A stretch of DNA of 64,000 bases from Zanthoxylum bungeanum (taxonomy: Eukaryota > Streptophyta > Magnoliopsida > Sapindales > Rutaceae), in assembly GCA_019454045.1 (NCBI GenBank), contig SKCR01032775.1:372001-436000 (forward strand), in the 5' to 3' direction. Shown here one piece after another: positions 12,911 to 63,774 of this stretch. Every line of letters begins with the position of its first letter. Within the stretch, counting starts at the first letter, position 1. The position numbers and the translations under genes are program-made. Under the pieces are notes generated by a model. The model was given only the letters and a program-made list of their open reading frames with translations. It was not told the DNA's origin and did not search any database.

Positions 12911-13359
12911 CCCATACGAAAGTATTTTTACCATTTTACCCCTCTGGTTCTCCCTTTTCCCTTTTTTAAACTTCATCTTCTTTTTTCGGATGCACTGCCT
13001 TTTCTATAAGGCAATTATGACTATAATACACACCATAGCCTATCAGATCTCCATAAGGTTTTGTAGAGTGTAGACACGTATGAACCTTCATCGGGTTTAA
13101 TGAAAATGAGATCAGTTTAAACGCTCCATTAGACTGGGGACAATCTGGAAGGTAAAAGAATAACCTTCTCCAAATATTAATAAGACCATCTGTCTCAGCC
13201 TACATGATCTCCAAATGACAGGTATGAATATTTTCTCTTCATTTATGTACCTTATATATGGTTTTGAAACTCGAGGACAATATCGTACAGCTTAAGGTAT
13301 GAACCTTCTTCTGGTCTAAATGACATGTAGACTCGGTTTGGTCCCTCTTCGATACCAAA

Positions 13360-37200: not shown

Positions 37201-40188
37201 ATCCATGGATACAACTCCTTGTAAAGGTGCCATATATCTGCACATAAAACTTGAGTCATTTCCCATGCAGAGCAAGTAAAACGGTAATTCACATTCCTAA
37301 TCAACAAAAGAGCATTTAACAGGAAAAATAACCAGACTGTACCCCATTGGAGGAAGACCGCCAGGCCAACTAGCCATAGAGAGTGGAAGAGGCAAAGAAT
37401 TCGATTGAACTGAAAATAAAAAAATAAAAAGAAAAAAGAGAAAAAACATGAAACAAGAGAAACTCAACCAACCAACCAAATCCAAATTAAATAGACCAAA
37501 AAGGTTCTAAATATTTTTAAAAAAATGAGCCTTTTTTTTTCCCATTTTTACCAGTTTTCTGAGGGACTTGTTGCTGTTGCTGCTGGCCACCCTTGTTGCC
37601 AGTTAAGCTACCGCCACCATTACCACTATCTCTATCACTCTTTTCCAAATCATGGTGAAGATCGATGTTTCTCTCTTTAACCGCATCTGGCTTCTGGGAT
37701 TCACTTTCTTCTATGACCGTTTTTGCCTTCTTTTCTTCTGCTTCAACACTAGTATCATATTTCACTGTTTCAACTTCCTTCTCATCCTCCCTTGCTGAAG
37801 GCTTCTGTGGCCCCTGAAATGGTCCAAAATCGACTATTTAATTTCTCAAAATTTAATTGGATAGAGAGAGAAAAATATATTGACCACTCACCGGCTGCAA
37901 ATCTACAGCCACAAAGTCAATCTCACCATCCCTTTCTGGTGAAGATCTCAATGGAGGAGCCTATGACCCCAGGAAAAAAGAATCATCAAAATCCCTCGAA
38001 TTATTCAAAAAACGAAAAAAAAAATCATCTTGTTCTTTGAAAACAAGATCCTCACCATCAGATCTATCTGGAACTTCTCCTCACGCTGGATTTCAACCTC
38101 AGAAGGCGTTGAATTTCTGAACAATAAAACATCAACAAAGAGATCAGAAAAAGGTTAATTCATAACCAAACAGAAATTAATAGAGAAAACAATTATTAAA
38201 AACACTCACGCTTTAGTCAAAGCCATATTGTCTCGACGATCATCATCTGATCTGATACCAGCCACAGATTCCTTCTTGGGGGACTGAGGCTCCTCTTTAG
38301 CGGCACACAAATCTCCTCTGCCGTTCTCTGATTCTTCAGTCAAAACCTTTGAATCAGCTAACAAATCGTTATTCTCCGGCTTCTTAGACTCTAGTTGTGG
38401 CTCAGAGGCTTGGGAGCTACCCAAATCGTATGATATCGAACCGTTCTCCGTAGCTACAGTAGCCGAATTCTTCTCCAATTTCAGTGAAGGTTCGGTCTTG
38501 GCAGATTGATCCACCTCAGACTTTGTCGTAGCCGAAATTGGATTATTTCGCACTTTAAACATCGAAGGATTCTCGTCGTCGTACTTCACTGGCCGGGGCC
38601 TCTTCCTCTTCGGAGCTGCAAATCCAAATGAAAACGGAAAAATCTCATAACTCTTCCTAACAGACCAACTTTTTTTGGAAAAAAAAATCAAAAGCTGAGC
38701 TTTATGAACTGAAAAAACAAGCTCACCAATAGCGGACATGGGAGCAGTTGAAGAGCTAGAATTTGTGGGTAAAATTGAAGAAGATTGAGGAAGTGTAGAT
38801 GGAGAGTTGGAGATCGGAGATGAAACTCTGGATTTAGCATCACTGCTGGACTTAACGTTATTAAAATTAATTTCCCGTGAAACCGAATCAGAAACCACAG
38901 TTTCGTGCTTTGACGGTCCCTGTGGCAGCCTCATCATCCCGTACAAAACTTCAGCGATCTCGATCTCAATCTCATCCTGAGCTGATGACGATGACCTGTT
39001 GCTCGATGATTTTGGCGGCCTAAGCTTCGGTCCGCTAGACTTCTATAAACAAACAAACAAAAGAATCAATACCCAATTCAACTTATCCCAAAATAGACAT
39101 GCAACAAAAATAATAGTCAGCGACTGAACTCAACTGACCATCTTCTTTCTAACTGAAACATTAGAAGGGGAAGCCGGAGCTGGAATAGCTGTCTCTGTCG
39201 GAACACTAGGCCTCACCGGAGACGTAGATGCCTGCCGGTGAATTTGTTCTCCACCAACAACACCACCACAGACTACGCCACCGGTACCGCTACTTGAAGC
39301 CCATTCGTGCGACCTCTTAGTAGATGCTGCAAAAGGGTGACAAAAAAGTAAGAAATTACAACACAAAAATCGAAAAAGAACAGTGATATACATATTTAAG
39401 AACAAATCTCTTCCACCTCTCTACCTGACCGAGCTTTTCGAGGCACCGACACGCCAATCATCTCATCACCGGCCTTCCAGGCACTGGAGGTGGTGGTCGT
39501 TGTAGTGGTGGATGTAACCGACGGCGGTGTCGCTCTAAAAACTTTCACCGGCGGCGGAAAACTCCTACGACTGAAATTGTTGTTATTATTATTACTATGA
39601 CTATTGTGAGTATTGCTATTGTGATGGTGATGATGGTGGTGGTGATTGCTGTTATGATGATTCAATATCGACGATGATGACGTGGATGGATTCGGCGGCA
39701 GCATCCGCACAGAAGAAGAATTTCCTCCACCACCTCCGTCGTCATCGTCGTCATCTTCATCGTCGTTCACACTCTCATCTGAAGTGTCATCGGCTCCCTC
39801 TTCTCTCATACTCCCGTGCATAAACTTATCGCTTCTCCGCCTTTTACTATTCCTGCTCAGCCGATCTCTCTCTCTTTCTCTGTCACGCTCACGGTCTCGG
39901 TCACGTTCCCGTTCACGGTCTCGATCACGGTCTCGGTCTTTCTTCCGATCTCTTAGCCTCGCCGTCTCTTGCAACTCCAATATTCCTTCTTCTGAAAAAA
40001 TCAAAAACAAATCAGAATCGATAAAACGGCGTAGTTTTGTTAGAATAGAAAAAAGAAGGATATTATTAGATCTGGTGAGAATTGAGACCTGGAGAGTCTC
40101 TGAGACTGTTACTACGGTGTCGTCTTCTCGACAAGCCATTTGACGCAGCCATAGTAACTCCTCTTCGTGCTTCTCTGTTTCTGTCCAT
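34220..40188 (-). CDS. TIC: TIME FOR COFFEE (TIC)-type nuclear clock regulator, 12 exons
   Basis: CDS complement(join 34220-36589, 36685-37059, 37171-37237, 37343-37409, 37552-37813, 37892-37960, 38056-38116, 38210-38615, 38727-39042, 39139-39326, 39425-39991, 40089-40188): 4,848 bp, 1,615 aa, near the size of Arabidopsis TIC. Every junction has GT-AG and the frame is open throughout. TIC is a plant nuclear protein that sustains the circadian clock and links it to metabolism, jasmonate (MYC2) and stress. Seen here: an N-terminus MDRNREARRGVTMAASNGL, an RD/RE-rich basic tract (about residues 45-75), then KRRRSDKF. Acidic poly-Asp and a poly-His/Asn stretch follow. The conserved RPKRCETHCYIARNIHYHQQ and MNPFWPAA lie near residues 705-742. 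Then come APSNILHAPAFIFPLSQQQ and a very long Q/S/A-rich C-terminal exon ending KQPAGE-stop. TIC has no known enzymatic fold. The start codon chosen is the first in the exon; a downstream Met (TMAASNG) is possible. Confidence 0.93.
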
Positions 40189-44499: not shown

Positions 44500-46149
44500 G
44501 TATTATAGTAAGAGTATTTCAATGTATGTCGTATGAAACAAGATGTAAGAGTACCTGTCAAGAATGCATAGTTCTATACATTGTCCTCTGTCATTTGGAT
44601 GGTTCAATAAAGCCTTTCGTGTGTTTGGATATAAAAGCTCATAAGACATGAATCGTTTGGATGTTGAGTAGTCCAGGTCTTCATTTGACTCGACATGAGT
44701 CCATGAGAGATGTCTCTGGTCGACTGAACCAGATGAAGGTTCATGAGTCAATTCATACGACATTGTCGTCTAGACTGATGGAAGTCCAAGTCTTCTTTTG
44801 ACTCGACATGAGTCCATGAGGGATGTCCCCGGTCGACTGAACCGGATGAAGGTTCAGTAGTCAATTCATACGACATTATCGTCTGGACTGAGGGAAGTCC
44901 AAGTCTTCATTTGACTCGACATGAGTCCATGAGGGATGTCTCTGGTCGACTGAACCAGATGAAGGTTCATGAGTCAATTCATACGACATTTTCGTCTGGA
45001 CTGAGGGAAGTCAAAGTCTTCATTTGACTCGACATGAGTCCATGGGGGATGTCTCCAGTCGACTGAACCAGATGAAGGTTCATGAGTCAATTCATATGAC
45101 ATTGTCGTCTGGACTGAGGGAAGTCCAAGTCTTCATTTAACTCGACATGATTCCATGGGGGATGTCCGGGGTCGACTGAACCAGATGAAGGTTCATGAGT
45201 CAATTCATACGACATTGTCGTCTGGACTGAGGGAAGTCCAAGTCTTCATTTGACTCGACATGAGTCCATGAGGAATGTTCCAAGTCGAATGAACCAGATG
45301 AAGGTCATGATAATCCCTATACTACGGGTCAAAGGATCATGGGAGTCTTCAATGTCGTCTGGACCTGATGAAGGCTAGGTCTTCAACTTGACTCTACATG
45401 AGCCATGAGGAATGTTCCCAGTCGAATGAACCAGATGAAGGTCAGGATCATGAACTTGACTCTACATGAGCCATGGGGAATGTCTCAGGCCGACTGAACC
45501 AGATGAAGGTCAGGATCGTGAACTTGACTCTACATGAGCCATGAGGAATGTTCCCAGTCGACAGAACCAGATGAAGGTCAGGATAATCCACATACTACGG
45601 GTCAAAGGACCATGGGGTCTTCAATGTCGTCTGGACCATATGAAGGTCTATGAGAGACTACGCACTACTGGACCTGATGAATGTATAAGAGATTCTTCAC
45701 TCTACTTGAACTGATGGAGTTCTAAGAGAGTTACCAGACCTGATGAAGTTCCATGTGGGTCTTCATTTCTCATTCTATTAGACCTGATGAAGATCTGTAA
45801 GGGTCTTTATTCCTCATTCTACAAGACTTGACAAACGTCAAGGAATGTCTTCATTACTCATTCTACATTACCTGAAAAAGGTCAATGTGGGTCTTCATTC
45901 CTCATTCTACAAGATTTGATAAATGTCGACGGGGGTCTTCATTCTTCATTCTACAAGACTTGATAAGTGTCAATGAGGGTCTTCATTCTTCATTCTACAA
46001 TCCTCACTCTATAAGACCCGACAAAGGTCAATGAGGGTCTTCATTCCTCATTCTACAAGATCATATATGTAGTGTGAATGAGATCTTTAATGAGTGTCAA
46101 GCTTCACATGGTAGTGTCGACTAGGATCCTTAACAAGTGTAAAGCTTCA
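44500..46149 (-). mobile_element. Fragment of Tat-like element B
   Basis: Carries the 113-bp array (44.68-45.3 kb), a decayed continuation with CGAATGAACCAGATGAAGG words (to about 45,660), and then 45.66-46.14 kb repeats with GGGTCTTCATTCCTCATTCT. The last ~80 bp have inverted similarity to element A interior near 9,600. It is cut at 46,150 by the Athila LTR. No LTR or pol of its own is visible; its remainder should lie beyond the window, past elements C and Athila. Confidence 0.6.
44680..45660 (-). repeat. 113-bp tandem array in element B
   Basis: CGACATGA recurs at 44,691, 44,804, 44,917, 45,030, 45,143 and 45,256, exactly 113 bp apart each time. Later units are shorter and decayed. The core GACTCGACATGAGTCCATG and GTCGACTGAACC is shared with the other two arrays, while the linker (CATACGACATTGTCGTCTGG) is related to element A only. 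Confidence 0.92.
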
Positions 46150-46969
46150 TGACCGGCGTAAACACACACGTATAACGCAAGCGCACATATCGTTCAAGTA
46201 GTATAAAAATATCGATCCCATGAGGACTTAATTCCTACTGTTGTTATTAATTATTGATACTATTATTTACAAGTATCTAATTATAGGGAGAAGGGAATTG
46301 ATTGCTTTTGGTTGGTTGAATGTGGTTTTGCAAAATAAAATAAAAACAGACTCAAAAGAAAATACTAAGGAAAATAAAAAAAAAAAAAAAAAAAACTCAA
46401 GGATCTAGGGTCGTGACTCCACACAATATTATTATAAAGATGAATTGACTCTCTTATTTATGCGTAATAAATTAATTTGCTAACCTGGAACACGATGATA
46501 TACAAAAGCCTCTTCCGATGGTCAGACGCAAATACCCAGTAAACCCAATTGAACCATATTCCTATGTTAACCAAATTACCTTGATTCATTAAGATTAAGT
46601 TCCAATTATGGCTACCCATGCCCGATAGGTATATTCCTATCATGTAAGGAAATCTATTAAAGTGTTATCTATCCTCAAGGAATATCGTAGGCTATTGAAT
46701 CCAAGGCTGAAACCTAAAATCTCTATGTCTAGTTCATTTTAAGTTTACCATATCAATCTTATTGGTGATCAGAAAACAAGAAGCATTAAACTTAAGACTC
46801 AATAAACAAACTAAAGAATTGCCCATAAAAAGAAAATCAATTATTAAGCCTAGTAATATTGTGTTTCATCACTTTCCTATAATAAAAAAAATGCTGGGGT
46901 TAGAGGATCCACTTTTAGAAATATCAAATTATTATAATATGGAAATTGCCAGTATTATCTAATTAAGTT

Positions 46970-47360
46970 GAACCAGCCATAAATGCGGTATTATTATTTA
47001 TCCATAAACCAGCCATATAGGCGGTAATTATCTGTCACCTAAGGACCAGCCATATAGGCGGTGTCACATTATGTTACATAATTAAAACCAGCCATTAAGG
47101 TGGAATCAACTCTTAATTCATATTACTATTTCCATATTATAATTAAAGTGAGATTAATCTACCTTTACTATTTATAATTTAGAAATCTCCCTTATTATAA
47201 TATATAAATCTGTGTGATATTTACCAACCAGTCATTTAGGCGGTATCCTGATTAAGTCAAATTAATAATTAATTACCAACCGACCAACCAGGCGGTATCC
47301 TCATTAAGTCAGGTTAAAACCAGTTTAAAAATAATTACCAACCGACCAATATGGCGGTAT
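46970..47360 (-). repeat. Seven interspersed CCAGCCAT-AGGCGGT motifs
   Basis: Related 17-18-bp words ACCAGCCATATAGGCGGT, ACCAGCCATAAATGCGGT, ACCAGTCATTTAGGCGGT and ACCGACCAATATGGCGGT occur near 46,972, 47,007, 47,042, 47,087, 47,227, 47,279 and 47,340. Spacing is irregular. The arms ACCRGCC/GGCGGT can pair weakly. The motif is in the LTR part downstream of the TATA box; function is unknown. Confidence 0.75.
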
Positions 47361-47632
47361 GCTTGTTAAGTCGGGTTTTAAATAATTTATATATTATAAT
47401 TAAGGGAGATTAATCTAAATTATAAAAGTAAAAAGCTTCACATTTACCCCAGCGGAAATTTAACTACAAAACATAAAAGAAAATAGAAGAAGAAGAAAAA
47501 AAACTATTAGTACTACTGAAAATTAAAATACATAATTAAAATATTATTTATATTTGAAAACTAGATGCAATCCTCTAAAAACATGGAAAAGCTCCCAATG
47601 AAAGCACACCAAATGAAGTGAAGAAGGCTTGA

Positions 47633-48092
47633 ATTTATAGGCAAAATCGGCTTCTGGCGTCGCGACGCTGGACATTGTCGACGTGGCACGCTCTGGTTCG
47701 TCAGCTCAAATTCTGGATAATGTGATAAGGTGACACGTGGCAATGTGGTTGGAATCTCAATTATTGTGACACGTGGCGGCTTCTGATTGGTCGGCTCAGA
47801 TTCTTATCCGCCACGTGTCAGATACGGATAAGTTGGTCAATAATTGATGCTGACATGGCGACACGTGGCAAAGTGACTGTCGGCACCATAGAATTGCGAC
47901 ACGTGGCACGCTGTGATTGGTTGATGATGACGTGGCAATGACGTGGCGGTTTGACTCGGTCAACCAGTATTGTGGACGATGATGTGGCTGACATGTGGAG
48001 TGACACGTGGCGATGGCGACTTTCGGCACCGTATGATGATGACACGTGGCACGGCGCACGTTATCAGATCGGCTGTGATGGTGACACGTGGC
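47633..48092 (-). promoter_or_regulatory. LTR promoter: TATA box with eight G-boxes upstream
   Basis: On the element strand a TATAAAT lies at 47,639-47,633. Upstream are perfect CACGTG boxes at 47,734, 47,770, 47,812, 47,862, 47,900, 48,004, 48,043 and 48,085, plus ACGTGGC half-sites at 47,681, 47,930 and 47,941. Most read GCCACGTGTC, the G-box/ABRE type bound by plant bZIP (ABF/ABI5, GBF) and bHLH (PIF, MYC) factors. ATTGG (CCAAT inverse) words are interleaved. This predicts ABA-, stress- or light-dependent transcription; binding itself is inference. Confidence 0.8.
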
Positions 48093-48376
48093 ACGGCACA
48101 CGTTAGCAAAGTCAACTTTTCTCAGATTCTGATTTGTGGACCAGGCGCATATTAGTACTGTTCGCCGCATGTTAGGGGTCGCGACGCTGAAAATTACCAA
48201 AATACCATTTTAACAATTTTCACTGTTTTGGTCCAAATCACCTCCAGAATGTCCTGAAACTTTATTTATCTATAAAATAACACAAAACACATCAAAATAT
48301 TCACAAGACTCAAGAAACTATACAAAATATTAGGTTAAATGAGTGGGAAATAGTGATATAATTACCACTCATCACA

Positions 48377-48391
48377 CCCCCAAATATAACA
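48377..48391 (-). other. Polypurine tract of the Athila element
   Basis: The element strand reads TTATATTTGGGGG immediately before the LTR start TGTGATG. This is the expected position for plus-strand priming. Confidence 0.6.
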
Positions 48392-49666: not shown

Positions 49667-50320
49667 TTAAAGGTTAAGATCCAGATTAATCCGACGCCTC
49701 TTACCACGATCGTCCTCAGACCAATTTATCTTTGAAATGATATGGTCAACTTGTGGTTCATAGGCTAAGAGTTGGTCAATTAGATCCGGAGCAGTTCTGG
49801 CAGTAAAGATGAGTTCTTTCATAGGTTTTGACACGAACCCATTTCTCCGAGCATCATCAATAAACACACAAAGAAAATCATAAAATCCATCAACGTTGTA
49901 CAGTCCAAGCGGTTTCTGGTGTATGTTCAGGTTCGCCAAAGATAATACTATAAAAATTTTCTCCAATGTGCCCAAGCCACATGGCAAAGCGATAAAAGCA
50001 TCAGCACGGTTAATCATTTCTACCAATCGTTCAGACATACCTGTCACGATCAGTTCCTCTCCGTTTGATGATCCAATAAGATTTGCCTCTGTCAAGGGTT
50101 TTGGGATGATTCCTAAAACGTTACTACCTCCTTCATGTACGGCCTTTGAAACGATCCCCATTAGTCCAAAATTGCCTCCGCCATATACTAAATGCATATT
50201 CCTTGTAGCTAAGACTCGACCCAATTCTTGTGCTGCTTCTACGTATTGTGGTTTAGTACCAACACTACTACCACAAAACACACAGATGTTTTCAACTCGT
50301 CTTCTTGAAGTGGCTTCCAT
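49667..50320 (-). CDS. LOG: Intact intronless LOG-type cytokinin phosphoribohydrolase ORF inside the Athila element
   Basis: 217 aa, normal LOG length. LOG enzymes release active cytokinin bases from cytokinin riboside 5'-monophosphates in the cytosol and nucleus. Seen here: ICVFCGSSVGTKPQYVEAA (residues 12-30), VYGGGNFGLMG (45-55), GIIPKPL (70-76), RADAFIALP (105-113) and QKPLGLYNVDGFYDFL (135-150). The family signature PGGxGTxxE is altered to PCGLGTLEK (113-121), with Gly to Cys and the last Glu to Lys; the usual ERK before it is ERL. The C-terminus reads GKRRRINLDLNL. Host LOG genes usually have several introns; this has none. An acceptor-like CACCCTTTTCAG lies ~50 bp upstream of the ATG. 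The unbroken frame contrasts with the broken neighbours. The ORF is read from the LTR promoter side. Activity is doubtful because of the signature changes. Confidence 0.9.
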   Translation of the reverse strand: MEATSRRRVENICVFCGSSVGTKPQYVEAAQELGRVLATRNMHLVYGGGNFGLMGIVSKAVHEGGSNVLGIIPKPLTEANLIGSSNGEELIVTGMSERLVEMINRADAFIALPCGLGTLEKIFIVLSLANLNIHQKPLGLYNVDGFYDFLCVFIDDARRNGFVSKPMKELIFTARTAPDLIDQLLAYEPQVDHIISKINWSEDDRGKRRRINLDLNL

Positions 50321-50571: not shown

Positions 50572-51120
50572 CTATGCGTCAGGGACAAGCTTCCCATCTA
50601 ATTTTCTTATAAATTGGCAAACATGGTCTTTTTGAGTCAGATTCCCGAGACTTAACAGTTGTCTTTCCTTTTGGAATTGTGTGTATAACACACGAATCTC
50701 GTGATACACACATCCACTGGGATGCATCTCAAGAGTTTTAGATATGTCATCCAAAGACTCCTTACTCAAGCCATCCCTAATGAACTTAATTTTATCTTCG
50801 TGGTTATCAGACATCATTCCTAAAGAACGACAACGAGTATTACAAAACATGCGAGCACATTTATAACAAACACACATTCTTTTGGCTCTTCTCTTTTTAG
50901 CATAGGTGCTCCTTCATAAGCCAGACAGATGTGAAATAAAAGAGTCAGAAGACTCACCTGCCAATCAGACCCGTGCTTCAATAATCCAACGAATGTCAGT
51001 AGGAATACCTTTGATCTTCAGTAACCTCATCCGTTCTAAACGAGCTTTGTAAACTTTCATCAGAGATTTTTGAGGGAGAGAAGGAAATTGCTTGTGAAGA
51101 TTTACGAGAACTTCTTCCAT
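50572..51120 (-). pseudogene. Broken Cys-rich basic ORF, flexivirus-NABP-like (tentative)
   Basis: One reading frame from ATG 51,120 to the stop at 50,572, interrupted by two TGA codons (50,965-50,967 and 50,914-50,916). The first part is helical and basic (MEEVLVNLHKQFPSLPQKS...), ending TDIRWIIEARV. After the second TGA come RSTYAKKRRAKR and a Cys cluster CVCYKCARMFCNTRC, then a ~75-residue tail containing DKIKFIRDGL. An arginine/lysine patch directly before a Cx2C...Cx3C-type finger is the layout of small nucleic-acid-binding Cys-rich proteins of carlavirus-like flexiviruses. The tail is longer than I would expect. It could be an unrelated element or host zinc-finger protein. It is not functional as read. 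Confidence 0.4.
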
Positions 51121-51249: not shown

Positions 51250-51699
51250 CTCGAACGTTAAGCTGGATCTGAAAATGTGACACTTTCTTTTTGTCGCTCA
51301 AATGATTCTCCCCAGTAGTGCTTGACACGCTTGTTTTTAACCTTGAAAGTTTTGTTGGAGTCAAGATCATGTATCTCAACGGCTCTGTCTGGTAAAACCT
51401 TGGTGATCACAAATGGACCTTACCATCGTGATTTTGGCTTCCATGGGAAGAATTTCACCATTGATTTGTTTAACAGTACCTTCTGCCCTGGTTCTAGTTG
51501 TATGCGCACTAACTTCCCATCATGTCTTTTCCTTGCCTTTTCCTTGTACAATTTGGCATCCTCAAAAGGCTGTATGTGAAATTCTTCCAATTCGTTGAGC
51601 TGGTGGAACTTTTTCTCTTATGTTGCTTGTAGTGCAAGAATAGACTTCTTCAGTACGCAGTGCGCTTTATCTTCAGGCTCCACAGGTAATTGACATGTT
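51250..51699 (-). pseudogene. Athila integrase C-terminal tail (remnant)
   Basis: Reading on from the protease frame: LPVEPEDKAHCVLKKS, a TAA at 51,618, then EKKFHQLNELEEF, AKLYKEKARKRHD, LEPGQKVLL, KFFPWKPKSRW, a TAG, then GPFVITKVLPDRAVEI and a final stop near 51,256. This is the GPY/F-type C-terminal domain of Athila integrase. The zinc-binding and DDE core are missing. Two stop codons break it. Confidence 0.8.
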
Positions 51700-52484
51700 T
51701 TAAGTTTGTCAGTAGAACTATGTCTTTCATCAGAGTTCTGATCGGTACTATGTATTACATCAAGTCTGAAACATTCCTCTTTTTTTTCATCATCTGGGAA
51801 ATTCATGGCCTTGAAAACATTGAATGTTACTTCTTGGTCCTGTACCCTCATGGTTAGTTCTCGTTTTTGTACATCAATGATGGTTCGACCTGTAGCCAAG
51901 AATGGTATCCTGAGGATGATTGGCACGTCTGTGTCTTCCTTTATATCAAGGACAATGAAATCTGCTGGGAAAATGAATTTTTCAACCTTGACTAGCACAT
52001 CTTCAACTACACCTCTCGGAAATACGAGCGTTCTATCAGCAAGTTGTAGAGAGACTGAAGTTAGCATTGTTTCTCCAATCTGTAATTTCCTGAAAATAGA
52101 AAAATGCATCAAGTTAACACTCGCACCTAGATCACACAGAGCCTTACCGAAGTCATGTTGTCCTATGGTACAAGGAACAATGAAACTGTCAGGATCTTTC
52201 AACTTTAGAGGAAGTTTTCTCTGAATGATGGCATTGTTTTCTTCTGATAATACTACTGTCTCATAATCTCCCAATCTCCGCTTTCGTGAAAGAATATCTT
52301 TCATAAATTTGGCATAACTGGGCATTTGTTCCAACGCTTCTGCAAATGGAATGTTGATATGCAACTTTTTGAACACCTCCAAGAATCGAGCAAATTGCTT
52401 GTCCAGTTTATTCTTCTGAAGACGCTGAGAAAAAGGTGGAGGTGGAGTGATATGTTCTTTTTCCTTTGCTTCTTTTTCCTCCAT
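51618..52484 (-). CDS. Athila aspartic protease region (fused to integrase remnant)
   Basis: 288-codon frame. It starts in a charged linker (KLDKQFARFLEVFKKLHINI, EALEQMPSYAKFMKDILS) typical of the Athila gag-protease junction. It then gives the protease with catalytic DLGASVNLM, IGETMLTSVSLQLADRT and DFIVLDIKED, PIILRIPFLATG. After about residue 260 the RT should follow, but the frame passes directly into integrase C-terminal sequence (LPVEPEDKAH), so some 3 kb of pol is gone. The protein would mature gag; it is probably unable to support transposition alone. Confidence 0.85.
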   Translation of the reverse strand: MEEKEAKEKEHITPPPPFSQRLQKNKLDKQFARFLEVFKKLHINIPFAEALEQMPSYAKFMKDILSRKRRLGDYETVVLSEENNAIIQRKLPLKLKDPDSFIVPCTIGQHDFGKALCDLGASVNLMHFSIFRKLQIGETMLTSVSLQLADRTLVFPRGVVEDVLVKVEKFIFPADFIVLDIKEDTDVPIILRIPFLATGRTIIDVQKRELTMRVQDQEVTFNVFKAMNFPDDEKKEECFRLDVIHSTDQNSDERHSSTDKLKTCQLPVEPEDKAHCVLKKSILALQAT

Positions 52485-52487
52485 ATG

Positions 52488-53937
52488 TTACGTTGTTTCT
52501 TTTGGAACTTCCTCATCAGTTGTTTTGGCTCCAACATCTTTGTTGATTTCAGTACCGCTTTTTAACATGATGACATGACACTGCTCATTCCACATGTTCC
52601 TCGGATTTGGTTCAGTGTTGCTAGGAAGGTTACCTGGCGGTCTGTAACTCTGAGCATTGGCCAGTTGTCCAATTTGATTCTCCAGTGCTTTAATAGAAGC
52701 TAATTGACTTTGAATTAATGCTGCTTGGGATTGAAACATAACATCATATCTTTCTGCTTGAGAGTCGTGTTTTGCTTCTATCTTTTTCAAGTGGATCAAC
52801 ACTTCTGTTATTCCTGATTCATTTGTCTGCTCCTGGCCTTTGTTCTGTTGTTGGAATCCGGGTGGTGGGTTGTTCATTTGCCCTGAATTGTTGCTTCATG
52901 TGAGATTGTGATGATTTCTTCATTCTGGGTTGTAGGTGTTGGAATATGGATTGTTCCCCTGTCTGTTGAAATTCTTGACATAATTCACCGTTTCTTTATG
53001 TTGGTTGAAAGATTCTGACTCAGGTTCTCCTCCAAATGGTGAACTTGTGGATCCACCATTAACTTTCATGTTAAGAGTTTCCAGATTTTTGCAAATCACA
53101 TTCAGCTTAGAATTCAGTGCTGTGTTGGCTCCAACTTCATAAATTCCTGCAATTCTTTGAATCATGCTCCTTTCTGTTGGCCACAAGAAGTTGTTGTTGG
53201 CCATTTCTTCAATTAAGTCCCAGGCTTGATCTTCTCCTTTTGCCATCAAAGCTCCTCCAGCAGCAGCATCAATTGTGGTTCTCATTATTCCAGAAAGTCT
53301 ATTGTAGAAGGTTTTGACTTGTAGCCATTTTGCGATCTCATGATGAGGACATTTCCGGAATAAATCTTTGAATCTTTCCCAAGCTTCGCAAATGGATTCT
53401 GAATCTTGCTGCACGAAGGATGTGATGTCATTCCTTAACTTTACAGTTCTGGCTGGTGGAAAATACTTTGCAAGGAATTTGGTGGCTAGAGTGTTCCAAG
53501 TTGTGATGGAACCTGCTGGTAATGAATGTAGCCAAGCTTTGGCTCTGTCTTTCAGGGAATATGGAAAAACCTGCAGTCTCATTGCTTCTTCAGCTGCTCG
53601 GTTGTAATTGAAAGTACCGAAAACTTCCAGGAAGTTGCTGATGTAGGAATTAGGATCTTCAGTTGCATTTCCCCCAAACTGTACTGACTGTTGAATCATC
53701 TGGATGCATGTTTTGATGTCACACGCATTTGCTGGTAAATGAGGAAGTACAATACAAGCCGTCGACCACCGGAATGGTTGTGTCTCAAATGGGAATCGGT
53801 GGTGCAACGTTCAAAGGTTCAGGTTCCATGTTGACTAAAGCTTCTTGGTCTTCTCGCCTTTCCCTTCTCAACTGTCTGATGGTTCTTTCAATTTATGGGT
53901 CAAGCGGTCGGAGTTCAAAGCTTCTGGTTCGTCTCAT
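52488..53937 (-). pseudogene. Athila gag, broken
   Basis: Gag forms the retrotransposon capsid. The likely start is at 53,937 (MRRTRSFELRPLDP), followed by a TAA near 53,893 and a frame change near 53,800. The long frame 52,920-53,807 holds the retrotransposon gag core (DPNSYISNFLEVFGTFNYN, EEAMRLQVFPYSLKDRAKAW, LATKFLAKYFPPART, ESICEAWERFKDLFRKCPHH). A second frame, 52,488-52,877, continues after a break with FQQQNKGQEQT, a coiled-coil-like stretch and LENQIGQLANAQSYRPPGNL. No zinc knuckle is seen, as usual for Athila. At least three breaks, so not functional as one protein. Confidence 0.85.
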
Positions 53938-54048
53938 GTAGTTTCTGAGAACCTGAAACACAAGAAAACAAAAACAATTAGTAAAAAGAAATTAGATACA
54001 AGTAAATGTATCTAACCCCTAAACTAATAGTAAAAGATAAATAAGCCA

Positions 54049-54064
54049 CCGGCAACGGCGCCAA
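54049..54064 (-). other. Primer-binding site of the Athila element
   Basis: The element strand reads TGGCGCCGTTGCCGG a few bases after the LTR end (CGCCGGTCA, then AGTTTT). This is the Athila-type PBS, complementary to the 3' end of plant tRNA-Asp as I recall it. Confidence 0.7.
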
Positions 54065-54069
54065 AAACT

Positions 54070-54916
54070 TGACCGGCGTAAACACACACACGTATAACGC
54101 AAGCGCACGTATCGTTCAAGTAGTTTAAAAATATCGATCCCACGATGACTTAATTCCTTCTGTTGTTATTAATTATTGACACTATTTATTTACAAGTATC
54201 TAATTATAAGGAGAAGGGAATTGATTGTTTTTGGTTGGTTGAATGTGGTTTTGCAAAATAAAATAAAAACAGACTCAAAAGAAAATACTAAGGACTCAAG
54301 GATCTAGGGTCGTGACTCCACACAATATTATTATAAAGATGAATTGACTCTCTTATTTATGTGTAATAATTAATTTGTTAACCTGGAACACGATGATATG
54401 CAAAAGCCTCTTCCGATGGTCAGACGCAAATACCCAGTATAACCTAATTGAACCATATTCATATGTCAACCAAATTACCTGGATTCATTAAGATTAAGTT
54501 CCAATTATGGCTACCCACGCCCGACAGGTATATTCCTATCATGTAAGGAAATCTATTAAAGTGTTATCTATCCTCAGGAAGATCGTAGGCTATTGAATCC
54601 AATGCTGAAACCTAAAATCCCTATGTCTAGTTCATTTTAAGTTTACCATATCAATCTTATTGGTGATCAGACAATAAGAAACATTAAGCTTAAGACTCAA
54701 TAAACAAACTAAAGAATTACCCATAAAAGAAAATCAATTATTAAGCATAATAATATGTGTTTCATAACTTCCCTATAATAAAAAAAATGCTGGGGTTAGA
54801 GGATCCACTTTTAGAAATATCAAATTATTATAATATGGAAATTGCCAGTATATATCTAAGTTGAACCAGCCATAAAGGCGGTATATTATTTATCCATAAA
54901 CCAGCCATATAGGCGG
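54070..54916 (-). repeat. 5' LTR of the Athila element, 3' part only
   Basis: 847 bp matching 46,150-47,060. The copy stops at 54,916 where element C is inserted. The rest, including the U3 promoter, should resume beyond 64,000. Confidence 0.88.
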
Positions 54917-55510
54917 TGTGGACGCTGGATTTCGGCCGAGGTCCTCAATCAGAATTTGTAAGTTGGGCACTAGCAATCCTGCAAAAAACAAAGTAGAGTG
55001 GACGAGAGTAGGCTACCACCGGTGTGGTGGATACCGGGTACACTCCGACGCCCAAGTCAGTGGCAGGAGGAAATAAGTTTGTAAAATGGAAAGCAAGGTT
55101 GAATATTACCTCTACTTCCTTTGTTTGGCCGTGAGAGCCGTGTAATATATGAGGGGATTAAGGATGAGAGCATGAAGTATTAGGGTGAAAGAAATGAGAC
55201 TTGAATGAATTCTTCCTGTATTCTTTTCATATTTATAGATAAAACATGATCTTGGGTTTGGTGTATTTGGTAATGGTTTTGGAGTAAGTGAAGATTAGTG
55301 CTAAGGTAGGTTAAGTGGAGTGGAGTGGTGGGGATTAATGCTAGAGTTAGGTTAAGTGGAGTGGTGGGGATTAATGCTAGAGTTAGGTTAAGTGGTCATG
55401 CTTTATGATTTTAATTGTAATCAAATACATAATTCTTTGGGCTTGGGCCTAACATGCTGATGGGCTTAAGGTGAAAGACAGTTTACCCTTAGACCAATTT
55501 GGCTCTTACA
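54917..55510 (-). repeat. 3' LTR of element C
   Basis: 594 bp; element strand TGTAAGAGCC...GCGTCCACA. TATAAAT at 55,237-55,231. The U5-side block (GGGCGTCGGAGTG, CACCACACCGGTGG, GCAGGAT, GAAATCCAGCGTC) matches the element A LTR. U3 has a 43-bp tandem duplication (GGGGATTAATGCTAGAGTTA at about 55,328 and 55,367). Confidence 0.88.
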
Positions 55511-55530: not shown

Positions 55531-55778
55531 GTCAAAGAAATTTTGTCTTAGAGAGTATATACGTTTGTGTCGAATGATACTAATCACAAAAGCACGTGAC
55601 AAGAATGTATCACCTTCTGTGGATTGTTTATAAGAGCTTTATGCAAAATGTGGGTTTTTTGGAAAATATCGCGTGTATCATCTGGGCAGACGAAGTCTTT
55701 AGTCATTCTGATTTGACTTGACTTATGGTAATTGTTCTTGGTCGTATGATCAGTTTTGAAGATCCATGGATACATTTG

Positions 55779-57434
55779 ACTCGACATAAGTAATGGGGAA
55801 TATTCTCTGGTCAACTGAACTGAATGTAAATTTAGGAGTCCCGCTTGACTCGACAAGAGTCATGGGAATGTCCTTGTCGACTGAACCAAACGGTGGTTCA
55901 GGAGTCCAATTTGACTCGACATGAGTCCAGGGGAATGTCCCTTGTCGACTGAACAAACGGTGGTTCAGGAGTCCAATTTGACTCGACATGAGTCCAGGGG
56001 AATGTCCCTTGTCGACTGAACAAACGGTGGTTCAGGAGTTTACTTGACTCGACATGAGTCCAGGGGAATGTCCTTTGTCGACTGAACCAACTGCAGGTTC
56101 AGGAGTTCAACTTGACTCGACAAGAGTCCAGGGGAATGTCCTTTGTCGACTGAACCAACTGCAGGTTCAGGAGTCCAAATTAACTCGACAAGAGTCATGG
56201 GAATGTCCCTTGTCGACTGAACCAAACGGTGGTTCAGGATTTTACTTGACTCGACATGAGTCCAGGGGAATGTCCTTTGTCGACTGAACCAAACGGTGGT
56301 TCAGGAGTTTACTTGACTCGACATGAGTCCAGGGGAATGTCCCTTGTCGACTGAACCAAACGGTGGTTCAGGAGTTTACTTGACTCGACATGAGTCCAGG
56401 GGAATGTCCATGTCGACTGAACCAAACGGTGGTTCAGGAGTTTTACTTGACTCGACATGAGTCCAGGGGAATGTCCCTTGTCGACTGAACCAAACGGTGG
56501 TTCAGGAGTCCAATTTGACTCGACATGAGTCCAGGGGAATGTCCCTTGTCGACTGAACCAAACGGTGGTTCAGGTTTCCAATTTGACTCGACATGAGTCC
56601 AGGGGAATGTCCCTTGTCGACTGAACCAAACGGTGGTTCAGGAGTCCACTTGACTCGACATGAGTCCAGGGGATGTCCTTTGTCGACTGAACCAAACGGT
56701 GGTTCAGGAGTCCAATTTGACTCGACATGAGTCCAGGGGAATGTCCCTTGTCGACTGAACCAAACGGTGGTTCAGGAGTCCAATTTGACTCGACATGAGT
56801 CCAGGGGAATGTCCTTTGTCGACTGAACCAAACGGTGGTTCAGGAGTTTACTTGACTCGACATGAGTCCAGGGGAATGTCCCTTGTCGACTGAACCAAAC
56901 GGTGGTTCAGGAGTCCAATTTGACTCGACATGAGTCCAGGGGAATGTCCCTTGTCGACTGAACCAAACGGTGGTTCAGGAGTTCACTTGACTCGACATGA
57001 GTCATGGGAATGTCCCTTGTCGACTGAACCAAACATAGGTTCAGGAGTTATTCTTGACTCGACATGAGTCAGGGGAATGTCCCTTGTCGACTGAACCAAA
57101 ATAGGTTCAGGAGTTCACTTGACTCGACATGAGTCATGGGAATGTCCCTTTGTCGACTGAACCAAACATAGGTTCAGGAGTTATTCTTGACTCGACAAGA
57201 GTCATGGGAATGTCCCTTTGTCGACTGAACCAAACATGGTTCAGGAGTTATTCTTGACTCGACATGAGTCAGGGGAATGTCCCTTTGTCGACTGAACCAA
57301 ACATAGGTTCAGGAGTTCACTTGACTCCACATGAGTCATGGGAATGTCCCTTTGTCGACTGAACCAAACACAGGTTCAGGAGTTCATTTGACTGGACATG
57401 AGTTTAGGGGAATGTCCCTTTGTCGACTGAACAC
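55779..57434 (-). repeat. 68-bp tandem array in element C
   Basis: About 24 units; CGACATGAGT at 56,521 and 56,589 shows the 68-bp period. A unit reads GACTCGACATGAGTCCAGGG, AATGTCCCTTGTCGACTGAACC, then AACGGTGGTTCAGGAGTCC. Central units are almost identical, while units after 57,000 carry a variant (ACATAGG in place of ACGGTGG). CTGAACC and GGTTCAG in each unit can pair around a 7-base loop. Confidence 0.95.
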
Positions 57435-57850: not shown

Positions 57851-60041
57851 ATGTCGAGTGGAGACTCTTTAGAAAGTTTAGGAGAACAGATCGATACATT
57901 CGTAGGATCATCATCGAGTGAATCAACAGAAGAAAAATCATTAAGGGAATGGTCGCGTCAAGAGTTTTTTGAGGAAGGACCTGTAACCGTTATGTCGCAT
58001 GAAGTTCCGTTGCAGGCAATTCCTATTAGATCATTGGCAGCTGTCGAGGAATTTAGTGGAGGGGTGAGCACAAGTGAGCCTACCAACATACTCCAAGAAC
58101 CCAGCTAGTCGAATGACGGCTACCCTGCTAATGGAAATTAGGATTAAGTATAGATTTCCTAGAACAATGGAACTGAGGGTGCCTTTGCCGTCTGAAAGGA
58201 TTGATTATAAAATTCCTGGTTGGGTGGGTTTTTATGTAGTACCGTTTTCTAATGGGCTAGATTCCCTATTCCGAGGTTAGCTTGGGAAATCTTGGATCAT
58301 TACGGGATTGCTCCTTCACAACTAATGCCGAATGCTTGGAGGATTCTAATGTCGATTGAATGCTTAGCATTCGAACAGGGGTTTTATATTTGAGGTGAAG
58401 GATGTTTTATATTCATACTACCTCAAAGAGCATCTTACTGAGAAAGGGAGATATACTTTGTATCTTCGTCGTAAGAGGGAACAAATAATTATGGGGCTTC
58501 CAACAAACGATAGGGGTAATTGGCAATCAGAGTACTTCTTTGTGAAAAATGAGGGTATCTTTGGGTCGACTGGAATGGGTCGAGTTTCAGAATATTGGGG
58601 TGTATTTAGTGAGTATCAAATTCTTCTATTAATTGATAATTTATCAATATTATTGTCGTATGAAACTAATGCATGGATTGTTTATTATGCAGGTCCTTTT
58701 CGAAACAGTTTATTCGACAAAACACCTCTCATTTTGTCGAATACTAAAGCTCTTCTTGATCTACCGGTCGAACAAAGAGATTGGAGGATAATCTTGGTAG
58801 AGCAGAGATTAAGAGCAACTTTACAGTGGGAAGAAATCTTCGAATCAGAAGGTATATCTACCCCTTTGGCACTTTCTAAAAACGTATTGGAAGTCATCTA
58901 CTGTACTCGGTCGATTCGAGCACTGTACGGAAAGGTGTGGTTTATAAAGACATTAACTCCAAAAGAAATTTTATGCGCAGAGGACATGGCGTCGAGGCAA
59001 ATAAAAGTAGCATCAATTGATGAGTTGATGAGCCGAAAAAAGGCTAGGAAGCTCAAGATAAAGGAGCCAGAAGTGGAGGTTCCAGAACCACAATTGGTAT
59101 CGTCGACTGGAACTCCAAAGCATAAGGGGAAGTCGACCGAAATAGTTGTCAAAGGGGGGAAAAGGAAGGCGGATGAAATCGAAGAAATCGATAATATAGT
59201 TGTCAGGATTCCATCAGGGTCGACTCAATTTCGGACCCATCAAGCCTTGACCCTTTTATTAAGAAGCTATTGCTGGAGGAGGATGAACAGAGGTTATCCA
59301 AGATTGGCCCGGTCGAGTCGATGAAAAAGGCTGCGGCTTTAAGTTACCAAGTAAGAAGTAGATAGAAATTTCTTAATAATTTGTAAATGGATTCTAATTA
59401 AATCCTTTTTCCAGGCAATGGAGTGCAGTCTACATATGCAGCGATATGTCGAATCGACTCTTAAGAAACAGAGGGAGATGGATAAATCATTTGCAGCTAT
59501 GAAAAAGGAAGTGGTCCAAAAGAGGTCGCTTGAAAAAAGAAATGCTGAATTGGAGAAGGAGTTGAAGGAAGTGAAGGCAACACTTCAGATGGAAAAGGAG
59601 ACTTCTGAAGTTACAATTGAAGGCTATAAGGATGCGTTCGAGAATGTGAAGAAGGAGAATGAAGAATTACTTGAGAATCTTGAAGGGATCGCTCTTGAAT
59701 CAATGATGAAAGAACGCAGCCATCTGATGAAGGATTTCCTTGAAGGAAAGACAGGAGCTTGGGAACCAAAGAAAAAATGGATTCAGCAGTATGATCAATT
59801 ATTGGCAGGAGTTTCTTTTTCAGACGAGGGTGATGTGGAAGAGAAAGGCGAAGAGGTCGACTCGAAAGTGGCAGAAAAAGAAGTTATTGATGGCGAGGGG
59901 GCGGCTGAAGTTCAAGAAGCGGATAATAAGAATGAAGAACTTAGTCGAGTGGAAATCGAGCCGACTATACAAGTTCAAGAAATTCCTGCACCTGAAGTTG
60001 CTGCTGAATGCATTCAAGAAGAAGCCACTCCGGAAATTTGA
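57851..60041 (+). pseudogene. Antisense ORF of element C, gypsy-type transposon domain and coiled coil, broken
   Basis: Runs opposite to pol. N-terminal acidic/serine segment (57,851-58,108, then a TAG). Next, over several frames to about 58,620, comes a domain with IPGWVGFYV, RFPIPRLAWEILDHYGIAPS and QLMPNAWRILMS, the pattern of the plant 'putative gypsy type transposon' (Transposase_28) family. The frame 58,395-59,324 continues with EYFFVKNEGIFG and a basic KRKADE region. A frameshift near 59,225 follows, then a short intron (about 59,350-59,414, AA|GTAAGA...TTTCCAG|GC). The last exon (59,418-60,041) is a long coiled coil with an acidic tail. Such antisense ORFs are known in Tat elements; their role is unknown. 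Confidence 0.65.
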
Positions 60042-60205
60042 ATATTTTGTAATTTTAATTTAACCTCTTTGTAGAACAAATTTTAATGAATTAATGATAT
60101 TTTGGGATGATATTTCAAATGAAATTTGTTTTTAAGTCGAATCACACAATACATTAATTTGAAATTTACTCTGAACCATAAAATATAAATAAATGCACGC
60201 ATAAA

Positions 60206-63200
60206 TTACCGGTGAAATTGCTTAAGGTGAATTGCATTCCAACTATTGTGAATTTGTCTCCCCTCAATTGTTTGTAATTTGTAGGCTCCGTGTCCAATAA
60301 CTCTTGTGATGATGTATGGCCCCTCCCAATTTGGTCCCAACTTTCCTTCTCCGACTTCTTTTGTGTTTTGAAAAACTTTTCGTAGTACCCAATCCCCTTC
60401 TTTGAATGTTCGACTTCTGACATTTTTGTTGAAATATCTCGCCATTCTTTGTCGATGAGACGCTAGTCGTATGGTCGCTTTTTCTCGTCTTTCGTCGATT
60501 GTATCTAGATTCATATACATCAACTGCTGATTTGCGTCATCATTAGCGTACTGGTAGCGTAAAGAAGGAATGGTTTCTTCGATTGGAATTACTGCCTCTG
60601 TTCCAAATGCCAAAGAGAAAGGAGTTTCTCCAGTCGAAGAACGGATGGTCGTTCTGTAGGACCACAATACTCCAGGAAGCTCGTCTGCCCATGATCCTTT
60701 CGCCTTCTCCAATCTTTTCTTCAAAGTATTCAAAAGTGTCTTGTTGGAAGACTCGGCTTGCCCATTAGCTTGTGGAAAGCGTGGGGTTGAAAAACTTAAC
60801 TTGATCCCCCAATTTTTACAGAAGTCTTGAAAATGTCGGCTAATAAACTGGGAGCCATTATCTGTTACAATCTCTTGGGAATGCCGAAACGACATATGAT
60901 GTTTTTCCAGACAAATGTTTGAACTTCTTTATCTCGTATTTTGGCAAAGGAGTCTGCTTCAATCCACTTTGAAAAATAATCTGTCAAGACTAGCATGTAG
61001 ACTCTTTGTCCGGGGGCGATTGGTAGCTTCCCTACAATATCCATACCCCACTTCATGAACGGCCATGGGGATAGGATAGGATTCAGCTTTTCTGGTGGAA
61101 GATGTGGAATAGGAGCGAATCTCTGACACTTTTCACACTTCTTCGTGTAATTGACTGAATCAATTCTCATAGTTGGCCAATAATACCCAGTCGAATGGGC
61201 GCGTGAGGCAAGGCTTCGTCCTCCAGAATGATTTCCGCATTCTCCTTCGTGCAAGTCTGATAGTACATGTTGTGCTTGATCATGAGTAAGACATTTCAAG
61301 TAGGGTCCAGAGAATGACCTTTTCAATAGATGTCCATCAAAAATGGTGAATCTTGCTGCTTGCCTTTGAATCCTTCTTGCTTCATTTCTTTCTTCTGGAA
61401 GCAGTCCATCTTGCAAGTATTTCATGATTGGTGTCATCCACGAGTCGTCTGAAGTGATGGTGTTGATTTCTTTGTTCTCCTTCCAAATTGATGGCCAATT
61501 TAAATACACTACTGGAATTGATTGTATTTTGTCTCCATGCATGGTCGACCCGAGGGTAGCCAACGCGTCAGCCTGAGTGTTTTCACTTCTTGACACCTGA
61601 GATATGTTGAATTCTTGAAAGGTCGCCTGGACTTCTTTAACTTTCTGCAAGTAGGATAACATTTGAGGGTCTCGTGCCTGATATGAACCTTGGAGCTGAT
61701 TCACTATCAATTGGGAGTCTGATTTCACTTCGATTCTTCGTCCCCCAAGCTCTTTGACCAAGCTGATTCCTGCAATCAAAGCTTCATATTCTGCTTCATT
61801 GTTTGTAACTCGGAATCCACATTTGATTGCTTGTTGTAGTATATCCCCATCAGGAGTAGTGATCACTATGCCAAGGCCACACCCTTTCTTATTGCTAGAA
61901 CCGTCGACTGAAAGTTTCCAAAGTGAATTTGATTGGATTGAATTGACTTCGGTACCTTCCAAGGGATTCTGAGTTGGACTGAAATCTGCTACAAAGTCAG
62001 CCAAGGCTTGAGATTTGATCGCTGTTCTGGGCTGGTAAGTGATGTCGTGTTCTCCCAATTCGACAGCCCATTTTGTTAATCTCCCAGTCAATTCTGGCTT
62101 GTGTAGTATGCTCCTCAAGGGGTACTCCGAGTAAACTGTGATAGGATGCCCTTGAAAGTATGGTCGTAGCTTCCTGGCAGACATTACCAAGGCTAGTACC
62201 AATTTCTCCAAATGCAAATAACGTGACTCCGCATCAAGTAATGCTTTGCTTACATAGTAGACTGGAAGTTGGGTGCCGTTCTCTTCTCGAATCAAAACAG
62301 CGCTTACTGCTTGGTCTGACACTCCCAAGTACAAGAATAACCTTTCGTTGTCGAGTGGTTTTGACAACAATGGTGGTGATGTTAAGTACTGCTTCAGCTC
62401 TTTCAGAGCTTGTTCGCAGGCGGGAGTCCATTCAAAGTTTTTTGTCTTTTTGATGGCTGAAAAGAACATAAAACTTTTGTCTGTCGACTTGGAGATGAAT
62501 CTGTTCAACGCCGCAATTCTCCCTGCTAGTCGCATGACTTCCTTTGGGCAGGTTGGAGATGGAATTTCAAGTATAGACCTGATTTGATCTGGATTTGCCT
62601 CAATCCCTCGTTGTGTAACGACATATCCCAGGAATTTCCCAGAAGCTACTCCAAATGCACATTTTGTTGGATTCAATTTCATCCCATACCTATTCATCAC
62701 CTTGAATGCTTCTTCCAGGTGTTGCAGATGCTGATCAGATTTTGATGATTTCACCAACATGTCGTCTACATACACCTCCATCGTTTTTCCAATCTGTTGT
62801 GAGAACATTTTATTGACCATTCTCTGATATGTGGCACCTGCATTTTTGAGACCAAAGGGCATTACTTTGTAACAAAAAATTCCCCTATTGGTCATGAAAG
62901 CTGTTTTCTCTTGGTCGCCTGGATGCATAAGGATTTGATTGTACCCAGAATATGCATCCATAAAACTTAGCAATTCGTGTCCGGCTGTAGCATCAACCAT
63001 TTGATCAATATGAGGCAATGGGAATGAATCTTTTGGGCATGCTTTGTTCAGATCTGTGAAGTCGATACAAACTCTCCATTTTCCATTTTTCTTTCGTACT
63101 ACCACCACATTGGCTAACCAGGCTGGGAATTGAACTTCTTTAATGGCACCATTTTGCAACAATTTTTGGATTTCTTCATCAATGATCTGGTTTCTCTCTG

Positions 63201-63774
63201 GGGCAAACTTCCTTCTTTTCTGTCTGATTGGAGGGTAGTCTGGATCCACATGGAGTTGATGAGTAATCAAGCTGGGATCAATCCCAGTCATGTCTTCATG
63301 CGACCAAGCGAATTGGTCATGTCGTTTTCGCAAAAATTCACTTAAGTCTGCCCGAAGTCTGGGATCTAGATTTGCTCCAATTTGAGTTTTATGGTCTGCA
63401 TATTTGTCATGGATTTGAACCTCATCCAATTCTTCAATATTTGGAAGTGTGGGCTCCTGCGAATGAGGTTCGTTCTGTAATTGCTATGCTGAATGGACCT
63501 TTGCCTTCATTGTTGTTTGGTAGCATCCTCTGGAAGCAACTCTATCTCCCCTTATCTCTTGAATCCCCCACTTTGTAGGAAATTTTAGAGTTTGATGATA
63601 GGTGGACGATACTGCCCTCATTTCATGAATCCATGGCCTCCCAATAATTAGATTGTAGGCTGAAGGACAATCTAGGACTAGGAAGGTTGTCATTTTGTTG
63701 ATTCCCCCTGCGTAGACTGGAAGGCTTATTTCTCCCAAAGTAAATTTTTGTTCACCACTGAATCCAATCAACAC
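60206..63774 (-). pseudogene. Tat-type pol polyprotein of element C (protease end, RT, RNase H, aRNase H, integrase)
   Basis: Domains in order: protease C-terminal half (63,774-63,487: NLIIGRPWIHEM), an in-frame TAG (63,484-63,486), then the 60,865-63,429 frame. This gives RT (KKNGKWRVCIDFTDLNKACP, FMDAYSGYNQILMHP, MPFGLKNAGATYQRMVN, VYVDDMLVKS), Ty3-type RNase H (LYLGVSDQAVSAVL), archaeal-type RNase H (VDGSSNKKGCGLGIV, NNEAEYEALIAG, DSQLIVNQ, ADALATLGS) and integrase zinc region and core start ([17 protein letters not shown]). A 1-base deletion near 60,880 breaks integrase just before the second catalytic Asp. The rest (TDNGSQFISRHFQDFC, PQANGQAESSNKTLLN, LGPNWEGPYIITRVI) is in frame 60,895-60,206. 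It is an almost intact pol with few lesions. Confidence 0.92.

Follow-up and report, generated by a model that had tools for sequence, protein, structure and literature searches.

A LONELY GUY-like open reading frame in Athila-like retrotransposons of Zanthoxylum bungeanum: a probable ancient accessory gene

An uninterrupted open reading frame of the LONELY GUY (LOG) family, the cytokinin-activating enzymes of plants, lies inside a degenerate LTR retrotransposon in a stretch of 64,000 nucleotides of Zanthoxylum bungeanum (hereafter, the window), which raises the question of what a hormone-metabolism gene is doing there. The original prediction was that a pol-deleted Athila element had captured this gene from its host, that all the other frames of the element were broken, and that a retroelement spreading such a gene under an LTR promoter would be a new kind of cargo. 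The form and position of the frame were confirmed by the list of open reading frames, by Pfam and by a map of the element: 217 codons without introns, placed between an integrase remnant and the polypurine tract (PPT) followed by the 3′ LTR (Table 1).

The element in the window

The encoded protein matches the Pfam family Lysine_decarbox with 109.1 bits (cut-off 27) and also LDcluster4. Its AlphaFold model reaches a mean pLDDT of 84.7, falling below 50 at residues 204-217, and the best Foldseek match of this model in the PDB is AtLOG3 (2a33), so that both the domain and the fold of LOG are present. The carrier is a pol-deleted, defective, Athila-like element of the minus strand, which reads 5′ LTR remnant, primer binding site (PBS), gag, protease, integrase remnant, Cys-rich ORF, LOG, PPT and 3′ LTR. 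The Athila features present are the LTRs, the PBS, the PPT, gag and an Athila-type protease. The lineage name (Athila; Ty3/gypsy, OTA) is an assumption drawn from the order of the parts, and the PBS is presumably of the Asp-tRNA type. The 5′ LTR keeps about 850 of some 2225 bases, all on the U5 side, the U3 side being gone, and the two LTR remnants differ by a K2P of 0.040 over 844 sites, with 10 indels. The claim that all neighbouring frames are broken goes too far, gag and protease remaining open over 295, 129 and 288 codons.

Table 1. Features of the LOG-bearing element, in window coordinates
Feature	Position	Strand	Basis or remark
3′ LTR	46150..48374	-	Sequence comparison; same order in fetched copies
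Polypurine tract	48375..48387	-	
LOG-like ORF, 217 aa, intronless, stop-free	49667..50320	-	ORF translation, Pfam, AlphaFold model, Foldseek
C-terminal tail RGKRRRINLDLNL, basic cluster and LxLxL	49670..49708	-	Tail comparison with relatives
Codon 128, Leu; pocket Trp in relatives	49937..49939	-	Trp in 151/153 relatives
Codon 121, Lys; proposed catalytic Glu in relatives (Glu122 of CgLOG)	49958..49960	-	Glu in 149/153; PMC4979012
Codon 114, Cys; Gly of PGGxGTxxE in relatives	49979..49981	-	Gly in 145/153 relatives
Cys-rich ORF, without Pfam match	50572..50877	-	pN/pS 0.81 among eight copies
Integrase C-terminal remnant, stop ahead of it	~51270..51420	-	Full order visible in L028/L029
Protease ORF	51618..52484	-	RVP_2 just below cut-off (Pfam)
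Gag continuation, other frame	52488..52877	-	ORF list
Gag (Retrotrans_gag)	52920..53807	-	Pfam
Primer binding site	54046..54063	-	
5′ LTR remnant, U5 side only	54070..54917	-	

Copies of the LOG-bearing element in the genome

A search of the 3.96-Gb assembly with the LOG protein gave 70,294 first-look candidates, 150 of which were scored. Each of the 150 aligns with the protein over almost its full length, at 90-93% identity except for the window itself (100%). Two additional searches with pieces of a host LOG gave at least 150 places each, most of them of the element type as judged by identity only, and few overlap the first list by eye. At least 150 LOG copies are certain in these searches, and several hundred are likely. 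Twenty copies were fetched from the LOG-ranked list, L029 and L030 having been chosen with knowledge of their LOG stop. In every one of them LOG is followed by a shared 3′ region of about 1.3 kb, behind which stands a U5-side LTR piece in 19 copies and another LTR piece in L028.

The stretch upstream of LOG differs among these copies. Eight (L013, L014, L015, L019, L022, L024, L027 and L030) are window-like, with gag and protease matches and about 3.75 kb from the 5′ LTR to LOG, and L028 and L029 carry reverse transcriptase, RNase H and integrase sequence there, to which L031, the upstream stretch of L028, adds gag and LTR sequence. Another seven (L011, L016, L018, L020, L023, L025 and L026) have 1.8-1.9 kb between the 5′ LTR and LOG, with neither gag nor protease match. 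A 427-codon open frame in this part of L018, without any Pfam match above the cut-off and with a zinc-knuckle-like stretch by eye, is possibly a diverged gag piece. The same interval measures 3.4 kb, without gag match, in L017, and only 132 bases in L021 (3023-9448), which reads LTR, leader, LOG, 3′ region and LTR, so that LOG occupies the place where gag would begin. The LOG motif of L021 is PCGLGTLEE, and its target-site duplication GTGTT. Altogether, nine of the 20 copies keep LOG without gag, protease or pol matches, L021 being almost LOG alone, and a search of these nine with the pol pieces of L028 and L029 found no match inside them. The LOG DNA tree, many branches of which are weak, intermixes the structural classes. 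At the far end of L012 there is a copia reverse transcriptase ORF, likely from a neighbouring element.

Perfect 5-base target-site duplications and TG..CA ends were found around the LTR pair in five of the six copies examined (L011, L016, L020, L021 and L026), and a duplication was sought at L023 and not found. The LOG-bearing L023 splits the integrase of another Athila-like element, which lies on the opposite strand (431-1182 and 9467-9943). LTR pairs could be measured over about 650 U5-side sites in 17 of the 20 copies and give K2P values of 0.0014-0.0286. The youngest pairs show one difference in 647-698 sites (L011, L017 and L018) or two in 643 (L024 and L025), and the LTR parts of L028 (L031 versus L028) are 94.6% alike. 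Four of the 17 dated copies (L020, L021, L026 and L030) have altered LOG motifs. Some LOG-bearing copies have moved recently, and LOG has been retained in transposed copies that lack gag, protease or pol matches.

The LOG-picked list is biased, because its ranking follows the resemblance of each copy's protein to that of the window. A second sample, made to lessen this bias, was picked with 501 bases of the 3′ flank: 40 of 7,366 candidates were scored, one of them the window, and 901 bases upstream were read for the other 39, a sample that favours window-like copies. LOG or a piece of it is present in 37 of these 39, in 36 by DNA BLAST (31 at 89% or more, five at 68-72%) and in L063 as its last ~20 residues only. 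L064 and L066 share identical 901-base stretches with integrase-tail sequence beside the 3′ flank and no LOG, and are either duplicate contigs or a LOG-less derivative. These three show that LOG loss can occur. The genome also holds a second LOG-bearing subfamily (L042, L043, L049, L050 and L055), whose LOG DNA is 68-72% like that of the window. The prediction that LOG belongs to the element and recurs elsewhere in the same Athila context is supported by these samples, and a LOG ORF inside the LTR pair is a family feature of the copies in this genome. The unbroken frame, on the other hand, says little about selection on the window copy. Only five of 35 judgeable flank-picked copies have open LOG frames on frame-by-frame reading (L036, L037, L042, L065 and L069), L049 and L050 standing outside this count because the slice cuts their LOG, and the remaining ones being broken, truncated or LOG-less. 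Moreover, the window copy has lost catalytic-motif residues, and its open frame was therefore not accepted as proof of selection acting on it. Under a null based on LTR divergence, P is 0.66 for the absence of a stop and 0.03 for the absence of both stop and frameshift.

Selection on the family as a whole is a different matter. The pN/pS of LOG is 0.153 over 27 LOG-picked copies (26 plus the window), with the bias just mentioned, and 0.366 over 36 flank-picked rows, a much weaker constraint. Figures from the same biased list are, for the eight gag-bearing copies, 0.118 for LOG, 0.158 for gag, 0.228 for protease and 0.81 for the Cys-rich ORF, which is under little constraint, and 0.175 for LOG in the nine copies without gag or pol matches. 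In the gag-bearing copies the constraint on LOG thus equals that on gag and protease. The dN/dS check envisaged in the original prediction has two outcomes in the 31 close flank-picked rows, with constraint at widely shared sites and hardly any at singletons. Nonsynonymous to synonymous differences number 70:37, plus 9 stops, at singletons, 37:19, plus one stop, at sites common to two or three rows, and 15:22 at those common to at least four, the neutral expectation being 2.47:1. Singletons differ from the widely shared sites with a Fisher P of 0.011, and with the 20 fetched copies pooled the two classes stand at 73:31 and 20:26 (P 0.003). By these counts, the differences shared among copies carry the mark of purifying selection and singletons hardly do. 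We read this as source copies that would be under purifying selection and offspring that would decay, the middle class (37:19) giving no signal as yet.

Relatives, origin and the altered protein

Relatives were collected with the window protein, AtLOG3 and P0033 as queries, the best 120 of each search giving 177 element-type and 120 host-type sequences, and the host comparison consisted of 120 LOG3-like proteins plus LOG8. Trees of 63 and 55 rows, from which length outliers and redundant rows (92% and 85% identity) had been dropped, place the element-type LOGs on one side of a branch with supports of 99/96 and 100/96, respectively. The window ORF is nested inside this clade, together with proteins of Xanthoceras, Reevesia, Diplodiscus, Populus, Paulownia and Parasponia, which speaks against the predicted capture in this host. 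Xanthoceras (several assemblies) and Reevesia each contribute at least ten clusters at 90% identity, and the four largest clusters comprise 39, 35, 29 and 28 sequences. That the foreign relatives are borne by elements is deduced from such multicopy clusters and from a published report on Citrus and Populus, not from their own DNA. A 336-aa database protein of Xanthoceras (P0012) contains the LOG sequence twice and is perhaps a gene model spanning neighbouring copies.

LOG was no new cargo either. Passages of that report describe a YgdH domain, which they connect with LONELY GUY; Gypsy consensuses of Citrus sinensis and C. clementina contain it, as do those of P. trichocarpa under a weaker filter, and Steinbauerova 2011 is cited (PMC9289625). 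As in the present case, these are LOG-derived extra ORFs in Ty3/gypsy elements. However, the copies without gag or pol, the very recent copies, the evidence from nonsynonymous and synonymous differences, the pocket change and the basic-LxLxL tail set the present family apart from those passages. Literature searches on LOG, YgdH or cytokinin together with retrotransposon or gypsy gave only PMC9289625, and none of the titles listed in the literature searches dealt with the tail, the pocket or LOG-only elements, subscription papers being mostly outside their scope. The presence of LOG in plant Gypsy elements is already known in outline; what is new here is the C-terminal tail, the altered pocket and the derivatives that keep LOG.

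As for the origin of the gene, the coding sequence is split at two host LOG loci of the same genome, L071 and L072, as expected of genes with introns. L071 consists of four strong coding pieces and has at least three introns, to which a weak piece (E 0.88) would add one more, and the element LOG shows no gap where these pieces are interrupted. Since the host LOGs seen have introns and the element LOG none, an RNA-derived origin is likely, and in this part the predicted capture from an mRNA stands. However, alignment with host paralogues yielded no recent donor: the window protein is only 39-53% identical to L071, depending on the piece, so that host genes of this type would not be recent donors, and the other LOG genes seen in the genome are likewise distant. 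Scans of viral contigs found no relative with the window protein and, with a profile, one locus of 39% identity and no plant element, and a scan of GTDB gave one bacterial LOG and no plant element.

The element proteins differ from host LOGs at two places, the C-terminus and the nucleotide pocket. An LxLxL within the last 12 residues occurs in 138 of the 177 element-type sequences, fragments included, versus none of the 120 host proteins listed, and a basic cluster in the last 20 residues in 156 of 177 versus one of 120. LxLxL is also missing from the C-termini of those host LOG genes of Z. bungeanum that were read. The motif, which has the LxLxL pattern of EAR-type repressor proteins, is present in 33 of 43 representatives and absent from Xanthoceras and P0028-type rows. 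In the 28 representatives whose tail has the commonest length, the Leu columns hardly change, and the residues in between are variable.

Regarding the pocket, passages of work on CgLOG propose that Arg99 and Glu122 are catalytic, name the PGGxGTxxE loop as the site of the nucleotide, place Lys100 at the adenine, and list Lys100, His97, Glu125, Trp129 and Met96 at the proposed prenyl site; Ala changes of the listed residues around AMP, Ser19 excepted, lead to almost complete loss of activity (PMC4979012). The known binding and catalytic residues are described as conserved among the plant LOGs tested in a passage of another study (PMC11593424), and all 120 host rows keep His97, Lys100, Glu125, Trp129, Arg99 and Glu122. 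The motif PGGxGTxxE is kept in 145 of the 177 relatives, and among 153 long element-type rows Arg99 is kept in 141, Glu122 in 149, Trp129 in 151, His97 in 39, and Lys100 and Glu125 in 11 each. Among the 43 representatives and the window, the full HRKEEEW pocket is found only in four early rows (P0028, P0058, P0272 and P0033). The other 40, a derived clade that includes the family of the window, have lost both Lys100 and Glu125, residues of the base and prenyl pocket, which makes the predicted live cytokinin-activating enzyme doubtful. In all 20 fetched copies this stretch is MSERL, in which Leu takes the place of Lys100, and in L071 it is MHQRK. The catalytic Arg is replaced by Gln in L042 and L043 of the second subfamily, as in nine of the 153 relatives, and this change further weakens an enzymatic role. 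Judged from the alignments, the catalytic pair is kept in most rows and the base-binding side appears to have been rebuilt. Most element rows share with the plant enzymes AtLOG3 (2a33) and AtLOG8 (1ydh) the fold, PGGxGTxxE and the catalytic Arg and Glu, and the element form differs from them in the lack of introns, the loss of Lys100 and Glu125 and the C-terminus.

The window protein has 26 private changes with respect to the majority of three close relatives (P0001-P0003), seven of them at alignment columns in which the remaining rows show a conservation of at least 90%. The standouts are G114C and E121K, both in the PGGxGTxxE motif, which here reads PCGLGTLEK with Lys at the position of the catalytic Glu, and W128L in the pocket, where the positions of His97, Lys100, Glu125 and Trp129 read S, L, I and L. 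Because these three changes alter motif and pocket, the protein would be expected to be inactive. The window LOG copy is probably old and inactive, and can probably no longer do the job of an accessory gene.

Possible roles of the element-borne LOG

The most plausible answer to the question posed by this locus, which is held with considerable confidence in its core, is that of an ancient, selected accessory gene borne by the element. An Athila lineage would long ago have acquired LOG from the mRNA of a plant LOG gene and would have carried it ever since between pol and PPT, and the window ORF would be one decayed copy of this gene. Source copies would owe their multiplication to a working protein with the LOG fold, or would at least multiply as long as they produce one. 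How this protein may act is a more tentative matter. A nuclear effector is conceivable, in which the protein would enter the nucleus through its basic cluster, its LxLxL (EAR-type) tail would recruit TOPLESS-type corepressors, the LOG domain would bind or hydrolyse some nucleotide that is not among the classical cytokinin ribotides, and the state of the host cell would be changed in favour of the element. The proposal in its widest form is rather doubtful: in a eudicot-wide retroelement lineage, the hormone enzyme taken from a plant would have become an effector that works in the nucleus, recruits corepressors and is specific for a new nucleotide, and some derivatives would have shed gag and pol and kept LOG through dependence on it. 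Extra genes are common in plant retrotransposons and mostly have no known function. In the present case the ancestor is an enzyme with solved structures, the changes affect named active-site residues and a short tail for which the kind of partner is known, and very young copies exist, so that the use of such genes to their element can be tested directly with simple assays.

The main rival reading is that the element-borne protein still activates cytokinin like any ordinary LOG enzyme, and that its copies would increase cytokinin locally, keep cells in division and thereby favour transposition and inheritance. The PGGxGTxxE motif of most relatives, their catalytic Arg and Glu and the full pocket of the early rows agree with it. 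However, the loss of Lys100 and Glu125 throughout the derived clade, the near abolition of activity by Ala changes of the residues listed around AMP, Ser19 excepted, in passages of the CgLOG work (PMC4979012), and a basic-LxLxL tail for which an enzyme offers no explanation make this reading rather improbable. A gene that merely hitchhikes without selection would account for the many broken copies, for singletons close to the neutral expectation and for the LOG-less stretches. Against such a passenger, which is thus very unlikely, stand the depletion of amino-acid changes at shared sites, the persistence of LOG in copies devoid of gag, protease and pol matches, and the nearly unconstrained Cys-rich ORF in the same copies.

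Two other readings concern the source of the gene. Databases label some relatives as host LOGL genes, and the foreign rows were examined as proteins only, so that Populus LOGL10-type relatives might be host genes and elements might have acquired LOG several times. A single clade with a common tail and common pocket changes, the many near-copies in Xanthoceras and Reevesia, and the occurrence of the domain in Populus and Citrus consensuses of Gypsy elements, as described in passages of PMC9289625, render this highly unlikely. The least credible reading is the one from which the analysis started, a new, host-specific capture by a single Athila that spreads a hormone gene under its LTR promoter. 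LOG is indeed intronless and in element orientation, and the host LOGs seen have introns, but the clade is common to other plants, LOG in Gypsy elements was reported before, the host LOG compared is only distantly similar, and the catalytic motif of the window copy is damaged. The element-borne LOG has parallels among known elements. Two Athila-like elements with similarity to LOGL4 in the 3′ position were reportedly described by Steinbauerova in 2011. Grande, of the Tat lineage, is likewise said to be a gypsy element with a 3′ accessory gene, whose product is nuclear, a location only proposed here; to our knowledge, that gene is not derived from LOG. Passages of PMC9289625 describe 25-kb Gypsy elements of orchids that encode an m6A demethylase of the AlkB type, active in vitro. 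There, too, an enzyme domain of host type persists as an additional ORF, though it belongs to a different enzyme family.

Elsewhere in the window, a Tat/Retand-like element with reverse transcriptase and RNase H domains and an integrase occupies 58395-63429 on the minus strand, with two ORFs (309 and 207 aa) past pol on the opposite strand. Related minisatellite arrays with periods of about 67 to 113 bases (44639-45646 and 55774-57432) flank the LOG element, and another related array at 13299-14469 is similar in inverted orientation. Finally, the ORFs at 34220-40139 presumably belong to a host gene resembling TIME FOR COFFEE.
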